A stretch of DNA of 21,710 nt from a virus, in IMG/VR virus record IMGVR_UViG_3300030061_000782, positions 1 through 21,710 of that record; one strand, given 5' to 3'. Shown here piece by piece: positions 14,118 through 20,790 of this stretch. Position 1 is the stretch's first letter. Each line of letters starts with the position of its first letter. The translations under genes and the position numbers were made by a program. A model generated the notes under the pieces. It saw nothing but the letters and a program-made list of their open reading frames with translations, was not told the origin of the DNA and made no database searches.

Positions 14118-14191
14118 AAATACCAAAGTAAACATAGAACAAGACTAATCCATAATCCAAATCTTATAACGACACCAGGTCTTAAATCCAT
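14114..14191 (-). CDS. possible 25-codon membrane micro-ORF
   Basis: On the minus strand, an ATG at 14191-14189 opens a 25-residue frame ending at TAA 14114. The peptide begins MDLRPGVVIRFG and continues LWISLVLCLLWYF, a single uninterrupted hydrophobic helix after two arginines. It would insert with the N-terminus inside. It lies within and beyond the 3' end of the SNF2 helicase gene, in another frame, and is preceded by GGAGAGGAG ending eight bases before the ATG. The stop overlaps the stop of the M15 peptidase on the other strand by 4 nt. It fills the otherwise empty 64-nt gap between convergent genes. Too short for statistical support on its own; no family recognised. Confidence 0.45.
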   Translation of the reverse strand: MDLRPGVVIRFGLWISLVLCLLWYF

Positions 14192-15615
14192 TCTTTTAAC
14201 TCCTCTCCCATTATTTGGGTAGCTATGTCTACTTTTTTACGTAGAGCTTTTACAATACGTGTGTCTACAGTATTTTCACATATAATATCAATATAAGTCA
14301 TAGGTTTTTCTTGCCCTATACGATCTATTCTAGCTTCTGATTGCTGTCTTTTCTCTAAATCATAACCATTAGAGTAATATACCATTGTGCTAGCCGCTGT
14401 AAGGGTAATACCATAACCACCAGTCTGTGTAGTTCCTACAAAAAACCGGACTCCAGAATTAGGGTCCTGAAATTTTTTAATATTCTCTTGTCTATCTTCT
14501 TGTGGTGTAAGACCATAATAATCTACGAATGTGCCCTCTCCATACTCTTTAGATAATGCATTTATAATATTATGTACATCTCTTTGAAACTGGGCCCAGA
14601 TAACAACTTTACCCTCTACTTCATACAATAGATCTAACAGCTCACCAATTCTATTGTTAGGCATTTCTTGTATTGTGCCGTCATCAGCTGTAAAATGACC
14701 ACAAGTTATTTGTTGTAGTCTCATTAACTGAGTTAACACCGTGGCTGTAGACATCATTTTGCCATTCATTTGAGCATGAGCTAACTTTTGCATTTGTAAG
14801 TAAGCTTTAGTTTGTTCTTCAGTCAACATAACTTCTCTCTTCATAAATGTTTTCTTAGGTAAATCTAAACATTCATCTTTTAATACACGATAAGAAAATG
14901 CTTTTAATTTTTCTGACAGCTCATCTAAATTTCTATAACCAACCACAATCTGTACAGACCTACCACTGAAGTTTGCTGTTCTCATAACAGCATATCTAGT
15001 TCTAAATGCATAATAAGAATTAAAACCTAATAACTCATCTTCTAAAAATTCACACTGTTTGTATAAATCTAATGGTGATTTAGTTACAGGCGAACCTGTT
15101 AGTATTCTTCTGTAAGTTGCAAGTTTACCAATACCTACAATATTTTTTGTACGTTTTGCACTTGGGTTTTTTATTGTAGTAGACTCATCGATAGCCATTA
15201 ATGTTCTATGAGAGTTTAAAAATTTTTCTGCAAACGCTACACCTTTTTTAGTAGATAAAGATTCTACATTCATAACAAGTATATGCAGGTCTTCACCTGT
15301 TTCAAATAAAGTATCTAATTTTTTTTGTTGTTTTGCATTAATTAATGACTGCCACAAAACACTTTTATGTTCTATGTGATCAACTATATGTGTGGGTATC
15401 TCGCCTTCATACCAGTTTTTTACTACACCCTTTGGTGCCACAATTAGAACACCATTGATCTTACCATTGTCATAAAGCATAGATATATTATCTATTAATA
15501 CTTTAGATTTACCTGTACCCATCTCCATAAAGTATGCAAAGAAAGGTCTTTCCCATGACATTTCTAACGCCTTCAATTGATGCGCGTATGGCTTAGTCTT
15601 AAATTTATAATTCAT
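14182..15615 (-). CDS. SNF2-family DEAD/DEAH-like helicase
   Basis: A 477-residue superfamily 2 ATPase on the opposite strand to the main phage operons. Motifs in order: HQ at 12-13 (Q-motif region), Walker A MGTGKSK (32-38), VAPKGVVKNW (59-68), Walker B AIDEST (141-146, DEST in place of DEAH), LTGSPVTKSPLDLY (172-185), VVIWAQF (337-343), FFVGTTQTGGYGITLTAAS (391-409) and motif VI QSEARIDRIGQ (425-435). This set is diagnostic of Snf2-type translocases as found in many siphovirus and marine phage genomes. It probably moves on duplex DNA or remodels protein-DNA complexes in replication or recombination. It has no added nuclease domain. The ATG at 15615 follows a minus-strand sigma70-like promoter. 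Confidence 0.93.
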   Translation of the reverse strand: MNYKFKTKPYAHQLKALEMSWERPFFAYFMEMGTGKSKVLIDNISMLYDNGKINGVLIVAPKGVVKNWYEGEIPTHIVDHIEHKSVLWQSLINAKQQKKLDTLFETGEDLHILVMNVESLSTKKGVAFAEKFLNSHRTLMAIDESTTIKNPSAKRTKNIVGIGKLATYRRILTGSPVTKSPLDLYKQCEFLEDELLGFNSYYAFRTRYAVMRTANFSGRSVQIVVGYRNLDELSEKLKAFSYRVLKDECLDLPKKTFMKREVMLTEEQTKAYLQMQKLAHAQMNGKMMSTATVLTQLMRLQQITCGHFTADDGTIQEMPNNRIGELLDLLYEVEGKVVIWAQFQRDVHNIINALSKEYGEGTFVDYYGLTPQEDRQENIKKFQDPNSGVRFFVGTTQTGGYGITLTAASTMVYYSNGYDLEKRQQSEARIDRIGQEKPMTYIDIICENTVDTRIVKALRKKVDIATQIMGEELKEWI

Positions 15616-16641: not shown

Positions 16642-17403
16642 ATGAACCAAGTAACAGAGAAAAAGTCTGCAGGTTTACCATCAAATATGTTTGAAGGTGA
16701 TGCAGCAAAAGGTTTGGGTACAATAGGTCAAGAAGATCTAGCCCTTCCTTTTTTAAAAATCCTTGGACAGCTTTCACCAGAAGTTAACAAACGTGATGGT
16801 AAGTATGTCGAAGGTGCAGAACCAGGTATGATATTCAATTCAGTATCTGGCGATCTGTATGATGGAGTGAAAGGTATTGATGTGATTCCATGCTTTTATA
16901 AGTTAGAATACATCGAATGGAAAGATAGAGGAGAGGGACCAGGTGCACCAGTTGCCATTTATGATTCTTCTTCAGACATCATGTCCAAAACAAAACCTGA
17001 TGCAAACTATAAAGATAGATTACCGAATGGTAATTATATCGAAAAGACTGCATCTCACTTTGTTATAGTATCGGGAGATAGTCCGTCGACAGCACTGATT
17101 TCTATGAAGTCTACTCAATTAAAAATTAGTAGAAAATGGAACTCTATGATGTCCGGTATTAAGATGAAGGGTGCAAACGGAATGTTTACACCGGCATCTT
17201 TCAGCCATATTTACAAACTAAAAACAACCCAAATGCAGAATGATAAAGGCACTTGGTTTGGTTGGGAAGTAAATAAAGTTGGACCAGTAACTGACAAAGG
17301 TCTTTACGATCAAGCCAGAAGTTTTAGTGAAAGCATTTCAAAAGGAAGTGTGAAGGCTAAACATGGTGAAGATAAACCAAAGGACCAAGCTAGCATTATC
17401 TAA
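16642..17403 (+). CDS. putative ssDNA-binding or replication accessory protein
   Basis: A 253-residue protein. The N-terminal part has DLALPFLKILGQLSPEV and GMIFNSVSGDLYDGVKGIDVIP (about 32-84), then CFYKLEYIEW, FVIVSGDSP..ALISMKSTQLKISRKWNSMM and a FTPASFSHIYKLKTT block. The alternating beta strands with aromatic residues resemble proteins placed beside primase and polymerase genes in marine phages and sometimes annotated as single-stranded DNA-binding. I cannot confirm an OB fold by eye. The C-terminus, DKPKDQASII, lacks the acidic tail typical of gp2.5-like proteins. SD AAGGAGT lies well placed before the ATG. It is followed by a structured leader for the primase gene. Confidence 0.78.
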   Translation: MNQVTEKKSAGLPSNMFEGDAAKGLGTIGQEDLALPFLKILGQLSPEVNKRDGKYVEGAEPGMIFNSVSGDLYDGVKGIDVIPCFYKLEYIEWKDRGEGPGAPVAIYDSSSDIMSKTKPDANYKDRLPNGNYIEKTASHFVIVSGDSPSTALISMKSTQLKISRKWNSMMSGIKMKGANGMFTPASFSHIYKLKTTQMQNDKGTWFGWEVNKVGPVTDKGLYDQARSFSESISKGSVKAKHGEDKPKDQASII

Positions 17404-17417
17404 TTCTCTCAGAGAAT
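17403..17417 (+). promoter_or_regulatory. 7-bp dyad after the putative SSB gene
   Basis: ATTCTCT and AGAGAAT flank a single C, forming a perfect 15-base inverted repeat that straddles the upstream stop and an alternative ATG at 17416. The one-base loop is too tight for a stable RNA hairpin, so if functional it would act as a DNA operator. It may also be chance. Confidence 0.25.
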
Positions 17418-17427
17418 GAGTGCACAG

Positions 17428-17459
17428 TGTGGGCCAGGAAGGAGACTGAGTGGCCCACA
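17428..17459 (+). promoter_or_regulatory. GC-rich hairpin in the primase leader with SD-like loop
   Basis: TGTGGGCCA (17428-17436) and TGGCCCACA (17451-17459) form a perfect 9-bp stem, extendable by a G-U pair. The 14-nt loop at 17437-17450 contains GGAAGGAGA, a near-ideal anti-16S sequence. The ATG at 17470 follows ten bases after the stem. No T run follows, so it is not an intrinsic terminator. It looks like a translational operator or RNA processing signal, and is unusual in this AT-rich DNA. Confidence 0.55.
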
Positions 17460-17469
17460 TGGGATAGTT

Positions 17470-19101
17470 ATGGAACAATATATAGAATTTTTTAACGGAT
17501 ATAGAAATGCCTATGGTGTGGCTGACTTCAACCACCAGGATTCAAAAGTAGATCCAGATACAGGCAAAAAGAAACCTGTATACAGGTGGAACTTTGAAGA
17601 GCTTACTAATGAAATATATAATCAACATCTAAAAGGCGAACTATCAATAGGTATACAGCCATGTACAGAAGACTCAGAAGTTAAGTTTGGGGTCATAGAT
17701 ATAGATCCAAAAGATTATGCTGACTTTAATAAAAAAGATTACATAAATATAATACAACAATACGAATTACCCTTACTACCAGTAGAATCTAAGAGTGGTG
17801 GCCTACATTTATTTTTATTTTTGGATACCTTTACAGATTCTAAAACTGTAAAATCTTTTCTTACAAATTTATTATCTTTGTTTGGACTCAAACAAGATAC
17901 AGAAATATTTCCAAAACAAACACAGCTAACAAAAGATAGTGAAACAGGTCAACTACGACCAGGACAATTTATAAATCTACCGTACTTCGGGGAGGAGCGT
18001 AAAGCTTTAAACGTAGATGGTACACCATTTACACTAGAACAATTCATGAAAGTGATTAGTGCAAACCTGATTACTAAAGAAAGACTGAAAGAAATTACAG
18101 AAGAGATTGAACACAAAAGTATGCAGGGTGTTGACGAAGAATTTTTAGATGGTCCACCATGTTTAGCAGCAATATCTAAACTATCTAGTAACGAAAACTT
18201 TGATGGTAAAGACAGGTTTATGTACAACTATCACGTTATGGTTAAGATGAAATATCCAGACAACTGGCAACAAAAAGTTATGAATGCACCAGTAAAATAT
18301 TTTGCAGGTGTACATGCAAACGCGTGGGATCAAAAGTTTTTAAATCAAAAAGTAAAATCATGGAATAGAAGTTCCAAGGGTTATACCTGTACACAAAGTC
18401 CACTAAGTGAAAACTGTAAGAAAGGTATATGTGTTAAGAAAAAGTTTGGAGTCTTGGCAGGATCAAAAGGTTCTTACCCTGTACTAACAAATTTAAAAAA
18501 GATAGATTTAGACCCAGAACCAGAGTACGAGTTTGATGTAACAAAACCAGATGGTATTGGTACAGCTACAGTACATTGTAAAAATGTAGAGCACCTAAAT
18601 GATCAACGTAAGAGACGTAACTCAATATCAAAAGCTGCAGGATTTTTACCACCACTAATTAAAAACGATGAAGAGCAGACTGTAATGGATACATTATATC
18701 AAACACAGAAAGTTGTACAGCCACCTGTAGGTACATCACCAAAAGAAAAATTACATGATGTTATACATGCAAAAATAAATGGACCAAAAGCAACAAGTGA
18801 TGCTGCATTTAAAACTGGATCTGTATTAATAGAGGATGACTATGCATTCTTTAAGTTTGATAAATTTTATGACAAATTAAAAGCAAAGAATTGGAAGTAT
18901 AGTGAGGACAAAACAGGACGTATGATGCAGGTATTGTATCAAGAATGTGAGATAGAATTTTTAGAACAAAAAAGATTTCCGTCAAAAGAATCTGGTAAAT
19001 ATCATTCATCAACAAAGAATATAATACAGATAAATATAAAAACATTTGAAGAAGTACCAATACATCACACTAAAACAAAACATAAGACAGACATAATATG
19101 A
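17470..19101 (+). CDS. archaeo-eukaryotic primase (AEP, TOTE/PriS-like)
   Basis: A 543-residue protein from the ATG at 17470, where the conserved part starts (YIEFFNGYRNAYG). An ATG at 17416 would add 18 residues that look leader-like and cross the hairpin. The catalytic core shows LKGELSIGIQP (55-64), FGVIDIDP with metal-binding D77 and D79, SGGLHLF (109-115) with H113, and GQFINLPYF (165-173), the order seen in AEP primases. Downstream, PPCL (C231) and YTCTQSPLSENCKKGICVKK (C307, C316, C321) form a four-cysteine pattern reminiscent of the PriL-type metal or iron-sulfur domain. The C-terminal 200 residues have no recognised family and no helicase motif. It would make primers for the downstream family A polymerase. 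Stop overlaps the next ATG. Confidence 0.85.
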   Translation: MEQYIEFFNGYRNAYGVADFNHQDSKVDPDTGKKKPVYRWNFEELTNEIYNQHLKGELSIGIQPCTEDSEVKFGVIDIDPKDYADFNKKDYINIIQQYELPLLPVESKSGGLHLFLFLDTFTDSKTVKSFLTNLLSLFGLKQDTEIFPKQTQLTKDSETGQLRPGQFINLPYFGEERKALNVDGTPFTLEQFMKVISANLITKERLKEITEEIEHKSMQGVDEEFLDGPPCLAAISKLSSNENFDGKDRFMYNYHVMVKMKYPDNWQQKVMNAPVKYFAGVHANAWDQKFLNQKVKSWNRSSKGYTCTQSPLSENCKKGICVKKKFGVLAGSKGSYPVLTNLKKIDLDPEPEYEFDVTKPDGIGTATVHCKNVEHLNDQRKRRNSISKAAGFLPPLIKNDEEQTVMDTLYQTQKVVQPPVGTSPKEKLHDVIHAKINGPKATSDAAFKTGSVLIEDDYAFFKFDKFYDKLKAKNWKYSEDKTGRMMQVLYQECEIEFLEQKRFPSKESGKYHSSTKNIIQINIKTFEEVPIHHTKTKHKTDII

Positions 19102-20591: not shown

Positions 20592-20790
20592 GCAACACGG
20601 AGGATCACACTATCAGAAATATAAAATTCAGCCTAGTAAGTTTGTAGTAGAGAATGAATTGCTATATCCTGAAGGTTGTGCTATAAAATACATAATAAGA
20701 CATCGCGATAAAGGAAAGAAACAGGATTTGTTGAAAGCAATACACTTTATAGAAATGATTATCGAAAGGGACTATAATGAAAATTCCTAA
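20569..20790 (+). CDS. DUF3310 protein
   Basis: A 73-residue protein matching the DUF3310 pattern (nucleotide-kinase-like SaV annotation in some databases). GGSHYQKYKIQPSKFVVENEL is followed by YPEGCAIKYIIRHRDKGKKQDLLKA and a final helix HFIEMIIERDY. The HY...P..F......Y..G..IKY..RH..K....DL.KA order is characteristic. It lies within the replication operon, overlaps the helicase by 23 nt and the polymerase by 14 nt, and has a strong SD (AAGGAGG) inside the helicase gene. Biochemical role is unknown; it is commonly coded beside phage polymerase or nucleotide metabolism genes. Confidence 0.88.
   Translation: MTSKVWDKQHGGSHYQKYKIQPSKFVVENELLYPEGCAIKYIIRHRDKGKKQDLLKAIHFIEMIIERDYNENS

Follow-up and report, generated by a model that had tools for sequence, protein, structure and literature searches.

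Structured RNA placed just before the start of a replication gene is known from the operators of T4 gene 32 and gene 43, and in CsrA/CsrB-type systems a protein binds mRNAs close to the start codon at a site that a non-coding RNA also carries. Here we analysed a 21,710-nt viral sequence (IMG/VR record IMGVR_UViG_3300030061_000782, positions 1 to 21,710; "the window" denotes this whole stretch), in which a hairpin at 17428–17459 of the plus strand precedes the gene for an AEP-type primase. An original prediction was that the stem presents a Shine-Dalgarno sequence to the ribosome, possibly as an operator through which the upstream protein or the primase regulates its own synthesis. We show instead that 17428–17459 is one copy of a conserved module that occurs in SAR11 phage lineages and on about a third of the SAR11-family chromosomes sampled. 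SAR11 bacteria and their phages rank among the sea's most abundant organisms, with genomes that are considered to hold little regulation. A structured RNA motif common to different phage lineages and to a putative host hairpin RNA is unusual; the sharing hints at an RNA-binding partner that phage and host have in common, for which the hairpin itself is a bait.

The module resembles the T4 operators in that its RNA also lies directly before the start of a replication gene, but it is not linked to a single gene, nor to that gene's own product, and phage lineages and host share it. The logic that we propose for it would work in the same way as that of CsrA/CsrB-type systems; however, the module is one hairpin with no GGA array, and membership is not claimed. 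The element is apparently undescribed so far. In Rfam 15, the window and 12 further loci gave no match at the gathering threshold, window positions 17300–17600 gave nothing up to an E value of 10, and six phage loci and two host loci gave no score at gathering. AniS sRNA (RF02274) is likewise a small RNA ending in a hairpin and a U-run, and two host loci reach 24.3 and 24.7 bits against it, but these scores (E 0.55–0.69) are far below its gathering threshold of 50. No such element is described in the literature searched, PMC5069720 included, a search that did not extend to most subscription papers and preprints. Meyer et al. (2009, PMC2704228) described in 'Cand. P. ubique' an rhtB-associated element, a single interrupted hairpin with a conserved loop and bulge that is followed by a U-run in about half of the cases, and gave rhtB, proC and livM/K as its contexts. 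Four of 18 LysE leaders in the sampled SAR11 genomes (L392, L393, L395 and L397) carry another hairpin, GATAGTCCTTCTTAGCC...GGACTATC, which appears to be this rhtB element and which is unrelated in sequence to the module. None of the rhtB, proC or livM/K contexts was recognized around the module copies in ten host regions, which lie at pgm/dusA-like genes or tRNA-Ser, and identity with the rhtB element, as far as the latter could be recognized, was rejected.

In the window, the main stem is formed by TGTGGGCCA (17428–17436) and TGGCCCACA (17451–17459), with all nine base pairs intact, as originally predicted. The string GGAAGGAGA, the proposed Shine-Dalgarno sequence, is indeed present at 17437–17445, but the "loop" that was thought to expose it is itself structured: the apex, GGA-AG-GAGA-CT-GAG (17437–17450), is predicted to comprise a 3 × 3 internal loop (GGA/GAG), an A-U and a G-C pair, and a GAGA tetraloop of the GNRA type. 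The RNA at 17400–17475 folds with a predicted energy of −26.9 kcal/mol (z −3.21), a stability equalled in one of 200 shuffles, and the module scores 35.9 bits with our covariance model R1, which includes this sequence. The primase gene (PF22548, phrog_21866; plus strand, 17470–19101) starts with ATG at 17470, downstream of the hairpin as had been anticipated, 10 nt past the stem end and after a spacer without a Shine-Dalgarno sequence. A start at 17416 is disfavoured, since an in-frame start upstream of the hairpin occurs in 14 of 42 distinct leaders, the window's included, and in none of the other 28, and linker indels among the leaders shift the frame.

These 42 leaders belong to window-type phages, that is, relatives found by homology to the window's primase, and were not selected by stem. 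In the covariation check, 99.0% of their cells are paired, and over both hairpins of the leader (a smaller one lies just upstream of the module) 52 cells are changed on both sides, versus a mean of 16.7 in shuffles. The prediction of a structured RNA leader before the primase is thus borne out by compensatory changes. A broader alignment, A2, was built from 99 distinct phage hairpins, reduced to 53 and then 50, with near-duplicates removed and three matches (L192, L211 and L275:5181) dropped beforehand as taken for chance. Its covariation score is 0.734 versus 0.181 after shuffling, with 92.4% versus 62.7% of cells paired and double changes at all nine stem pairs, a count that is partly circular because the rows had been picked for having the stem. 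Thirty-eight phage and host hairpins aligned together score 0.798 versus 0.214; HTVC008M was excluded from alignment A5 for its insertion. A structural scan of 1.86 Mb of fetched loci, many of them fetched for holding the element, returned 225 matches versus one in the reversed sequence.

In A2, GAGA and T20 are invariant and a G-U pair is kept in 49 of 50 rows; consistent with a GNRA tetraloop on a Watson-Crick closing pair, GAGA is closed by C-G in 40 rows and by G-C in 10. The upper apex appears to consist of a G-U (or A-U) pair and a second pair that swaps between C-G and G-C. Among the window-type leaders the C-G form (GCGAGAGT) accounts for 27 and the G-C form (GGGAGACT or AGGAGACT) for 15, and HTVC027P-type leaders mostly have GGGAGACT, GGAG included; the window's long Shine-Dalgarno-like string is one apex variant. 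In the structural scan, GCGAGAGT occurs in 138 of 225 matches, a count inflated because loci had been searched by that apex, and five matches have an apex other than the GAGA type. The 3 × 3 internal loop is mostly purine, and its commonest form is GAA/GGA closed by G-U. Internal loops of the 5′YGGA/3′RAAG 3 × 3 class form consecutive sheared pairs, and by sequence the commonest loop has this make-up; other loop types occur in the module. The apex, rather than the stem sequence, is common to Skadi-, T4-, T7-like and HTVC027P-type phages and to hosts, as is typical of sites that a factor reads. The conserved G-U wobble (49/50 phage rows and 28/28 host rows) argues for RNA, and we infer that the module works as RNA.

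The module occurs, usually once per genome, in several different SAR11 phage lineages. A scan with the primase protein found 80 viral loci, 75 of them with at least 45 nt of upstream sequence. The primase loci were found without reference to the hairpin, and among those with enough sequence 75/75 of the window type and 70/71 of the HTVC027P type have the apex ahead of the gene (5/80 and 9/80 were left out for too little upstream sequence); the sole exception, L156, has a copy further upstream. The HTVC027P primase is 36% identical to the window primase, and its leader has a different stem with an apex of the same kind. A search of viral contigs with the apex 14-mer GAAGCGAGAGTGGA alone, again not selecting by stem, gave at least 120 loci; of the 120 listed, 96 have a flanking stem of at least five pairs and 24 do not. 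The genes downstream of these 96, grouped by blastp with one member giving each cluster its name, encode an AEP primase in 40 loci, a 66-aa ORF in 20, a 487-aa family-less protein in 13, a 56-aa ORF in 6, a T7 gp4-like primase-helicase in 4, a peptide deformylase in 3, a terminase in 2 and a 91-aa protein in 2, with four single cases and two in which no gene was found; the counts reflect one exact apex and are no census. Relatives of the 66-aa ORF number 21 records, all from Pelagibacter phages including the Skadi type, and the 487-aa protein (L238 1488–2951) has no PHROG family and no match in phage records.

Further copies were found in Skadi-1 (E 1.6e-7), HTVC168P (0.0012) and HTVC019P (0.0094) and, among ten more isolates, in HTVC109P (0.0005), Bylgja (0.0007), HTVC008M (0.0018) and HTVC021P (0.017); the remaining six, HTVC010P, HTVC011P, HTVC119P, HTVC200P, HTVC025P and roseophage CRP-171, are without the element. 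The copy lies before the endonuclease V gene in T4-like HTVC008M, one gene past the capsid gene in Skadi-1, and after the capsid gene in HTVC168P. In HTVC011P, model R3 finds a GGGAGACT hairpin without the internal loop at 20597–20622 (L453 1098–1123; E 0.19), between the genes for capsid and tail tubular protein A, which is the place of the full module in HTVC168P. Over 24 phage records, most of them picked for holding the element, R1 gave one strong match each in 22, a second, weak match of 18.4 bits in five, and none in HTVC023P and 023Pt; in 023Pt, a separate search found a candidate of 22.3 bits (E 0.042) ahead of the deformylase gene. Seven phages of other or unknown hosts, CRP-171 included, gave no match, an empty answer that proves nothing alone. 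An extended pattern matched four genome contigs, two of which have phage-context small ORFs downstream and look like phage contigs in single-cell or metagenome-assembled genomes; L288 looks like a chance match, and the fourth is the Blastocatellia contig L291 described below.

At phage genes the module is placed tightly. In 147 distinct phage contexts (the 225 matches minus duplicates, three rare apices and L178), a start codon is predicted within 160 nt in 144, at a median of 8 nt from the stem end (quartiles 6 and 11), and the upstream stop codon lies at a median of 15 nt before the stem (n = 142). A Shine-Dalgarno-like word falls fully within the spacer in only four of the 144. Fifty-four of these elements are covered by an open frame of 120 codons or more, in our view mostly an upstream continuation of the downstream frame.

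The module is also present on host chromosomes. In a class-wide sample of 385 genomes, R1 (E 0.02) matched three: the reference G019, on a phage-like contig, and two others, both SAR11-family genomes of 1.2–1.3 Mb, in which the element sits in a large contig with 28–29% G+C around it. Among 117 SAR11-family genomes, a copy was found in 31 with R1 (E 0.05), 41 with the host covariance model R2 (E 0.01) and 39 with R3 (E 0.01); scans over 40 genomes used strict filters and scored only part of the candidates, so that these counts are lower bounds. There is one copy per genome, except for one genome with two. We call the family SAR11 because one member, taken to be HTCC1062, has its copy at 1142941–1143029, within an intergenic region (1142870–1143031, between COG0659 and HIT-protein genes) that Meyer et al. 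(PMC2704228) list with a count of 29 and no named motif; the element accounts for this region. Eight of ten host regions have pgm-like and dusA-like genes (named by eye) and two have tRNA-Ser, and the same tRNA end was seen by eye in ten of 28 aligned host loci (L332 and L347 of 30 were missed by the alignment pattern).

Host copies carry a promoter-like block. Upstream of the stem, GANTC is found in 38 of 39 host loci (L446 is misplaced in this count), TAnnnT follows at a fixed 8 nt after the GANTC start in 32, and for 27 of the 32 the distance from the end of TAnnnT to the stem is 5–7 nt; the block was found in 0 of 143 phage contexts. A run of at least five T stands at the stem 3′ end in 12 of 39 host copies. 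From the placement of the block and the T-runs, a short transcript would seem to begin with the host hairpin and, in some genomes, to consist of nothing else. By eye, four of ten host regions have an ORF on the same strand that begins no more than 60 nt past the stem. Two T7-like phages have apices equal to those of hosts, TGGAGGGAGACTGAAG in HTVC019P and hosts and AGCGGGAGACTTAA in HTVC168P and one host. The apical stem is longer in the host copies L444 and L447 (GACC GAGA GGC), which retain the GGA/GAA internal loop and GAGA. GANTC methylation in Pelagibacter has been tied to the cell cycle (PMC9516812), so a cell-cycle link of the putative host promoter is possible.

On these observations, there is an even chance, in our judgement, that the module is what an RNA-binding factor of SAR11 recognizes, present as a stand-alone hairpin RNA in hosts and as a cis element in phage mRNAs. 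Specifically, GANTC next to a −10-like element would start a host transcript at the stem base, giving a short hairpin RNA that is ended by the T-run in some genomes. In phages of the window's kind, the module would act in cis from its place after a stop codon and ahead of one gene that has no Shine-Dalgarno sequence of its own. A factor bound there would govern initiation on this gene, with the host hairpin RNA as a competitor for it, a CsrA/CsrB-like logic. We put forward more tentatively that one host factor reads a promoter-driven chromosomal hairpin RNA and the single copies carried by T4-like, T7-like, Skadi- and HTVC027P-type phages, which would plug one phage gene into, or disarm, a host RNA circuit under GANTC-linked (CcrM, cell-cycle) control. 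Several phage lineages would then carry the same host RNA module; the shared element points to a common RNA-binding partner.

Several observations weigh against a factor-read cis element. The binding partner is postulated, and host transcription is deduced from sequence alone. About two thirds of the sampled SAR11-family genomes have no match, nor do the pelagiphages HTVC010P, HTVC023P, HTVC119P, HTVC200P and HTVC025P, and by eye no same-strand ORF starts after the stem in six of ten host regions. The internal loop varies (AGC/TAA, GGC/AAA and AAC/GAG occur), so the module is not one fixed motif, and the circularity of the A2 count has been mentioned. GGAG, GAGG or AGGA is found at −18 to −4 of the start in 29 of 144 phage contexts, where it can include stem bases. 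In T7-like phages the tight spacing gives way to a larger distance; HTVC168P has AAGGA before its start, and in HTVC019P a tRNA-Cys gene stands between hairpin and primase. Moreover, a single copy per genome, next to differing genes, would be unusual if a set pathway were regulated in cis, and is compatible with a role in trans too.

Such a role in trans is the main rival to the cis reading. The phage copy would be a decoy or replacement for the host hairpin RNA, riding in or cut from phage mRNA and occupying the host factor, with the neighbouring gene irrelevant. The usually single copy per phage and per host genome, the differing neighbour genes, and the identity of two T7-like phage apices to host apices all agree with this, as do the copies in HTVC168P and Skadi-1 and the HTVC011P hairpin, since a capsid gene is normally strongly expressed and these lie after it. 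It leaves unexplained, however, the 8-nt median spacing to the start codon over 144 contexts, and we regard it as possible but rather unlikely. An RNA processing or stability element, that is, a nuclease site or protective hairpin dividing genes that need different mRNA amounts, would suit an intergenic position near the upstream stop and, in some phages, after the capsid gene. Apex conservation is not required of such an element, whereas in the module GAGA and T20 do not vary and the G-U pair hardly does, and host copies lie at an apparent transcript start; we consider it improbable.

A Shine-Dalgarno display combined with an autogenous operator is very improbable. In its favour, the window has GGAAGGAGA in the apex and no other Shine-Dalgarno sequence near the start, and the GGGAGACT apex of many relatives includes GGAG. 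In 27 of 42 window-type leaders, however, GCGAGAGT replaces the GGAG apex, so that there is no conserved anti-16S loop; the candidate bases sit in the tetraloop and in paired positions, and host copies keep them also where no gene starts. Autoregulation by the upstream protein or the primase, in the manner of T4 gp32 and gp43, is unsupported because the same module occurs at several unrelated genes in other phages and at other genes on host chromosomes. The upstream protein, presented as a putative single-stranded DNA-binding protein, is Pam3_Gp34-like, belongs to a PHROG without assigned function, and yielded no credible relative in the PDB.

A site acting as DNA (a replication origin, a primase recognition hairpin, a packaging or an attachment site) is more doubtful still. 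It would accord with a single copy per replicon, often beside a primase gene, with the tRNA-Ser preceding two of ten host copies and with the tRNA-Cys adjoining the HTVC019P copy, but the conserved G-U wobble and the GNRA-type loop point to RNA. A host replication origin, suggested by TATCCACA and GANTC upstream of some copies, found no support: there is no skew switch at the element in the one SAR11-family genome sampled (G318, 20 windows of 20 kb) and no cluster of exact TTATCCACA boxes in the ten host regions. Least probable is an intrinsic terminator or attenuator, which the T-runs of 12 host copies would suit but which is rejected for phages (T6 in 0/147 and T4 in 4/147 contexts, and no terminator-like site found at the window's element).

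Around the window's module, the upstream gene (PF23977; plus strand, 16642–17403) ends with a TAA stop at 17401–17403 that touches hairpin 1, ATTCTCT C AGAGAAT (17403–17417). This second, 15-base dyad just upstream was also correctly predicted; its 7 bp covary in window-type relatives, and it lies outside the core module, as other phages have a different small hairpin or none. The linker GTGCACA (17420–17426) is the same in all 42 distinct window-type leaders. The sequence GCATTAT[AC]TAATT at 17393–17405, across the upstream stop, is nearly invariant and includes TATAAT if its eighth base is A; a promoter there is possible. The leader-cutting pattern required most of this sequence, but only truncated loci were without it. 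A two-codon ORF, ATGGGATAG (17459–17467), whose first base is the last stem base, is seen in the window and is not present in the other leaders compared.

The module of HTVC019P (L293 8908–9019) adjoins the tRNA-Cys gene on the opposite strand, and tRNA-Ser precedes some of the host copies; the element may be connected with integration sites. An exact apex on an 8-bp stem, with no gene start found, occurs in a Blastocatellia metagenome-assembled genome (L291 5289–5314) and may be a chance match or a repeat element. Other phages with AEP-type primases have different strong hairpins in the same intergenic place (L083 1454–1507, L086 1420–1489 and L087 1426–1489). The window encodes an SNF2-family helicase on the opposite strand (14182–15615, minus strand), and at the end of the HTVC027P genome the opposite strand encodes a superfamily II helicase, from which the window looks like a permutation of the HTVC027P layout.

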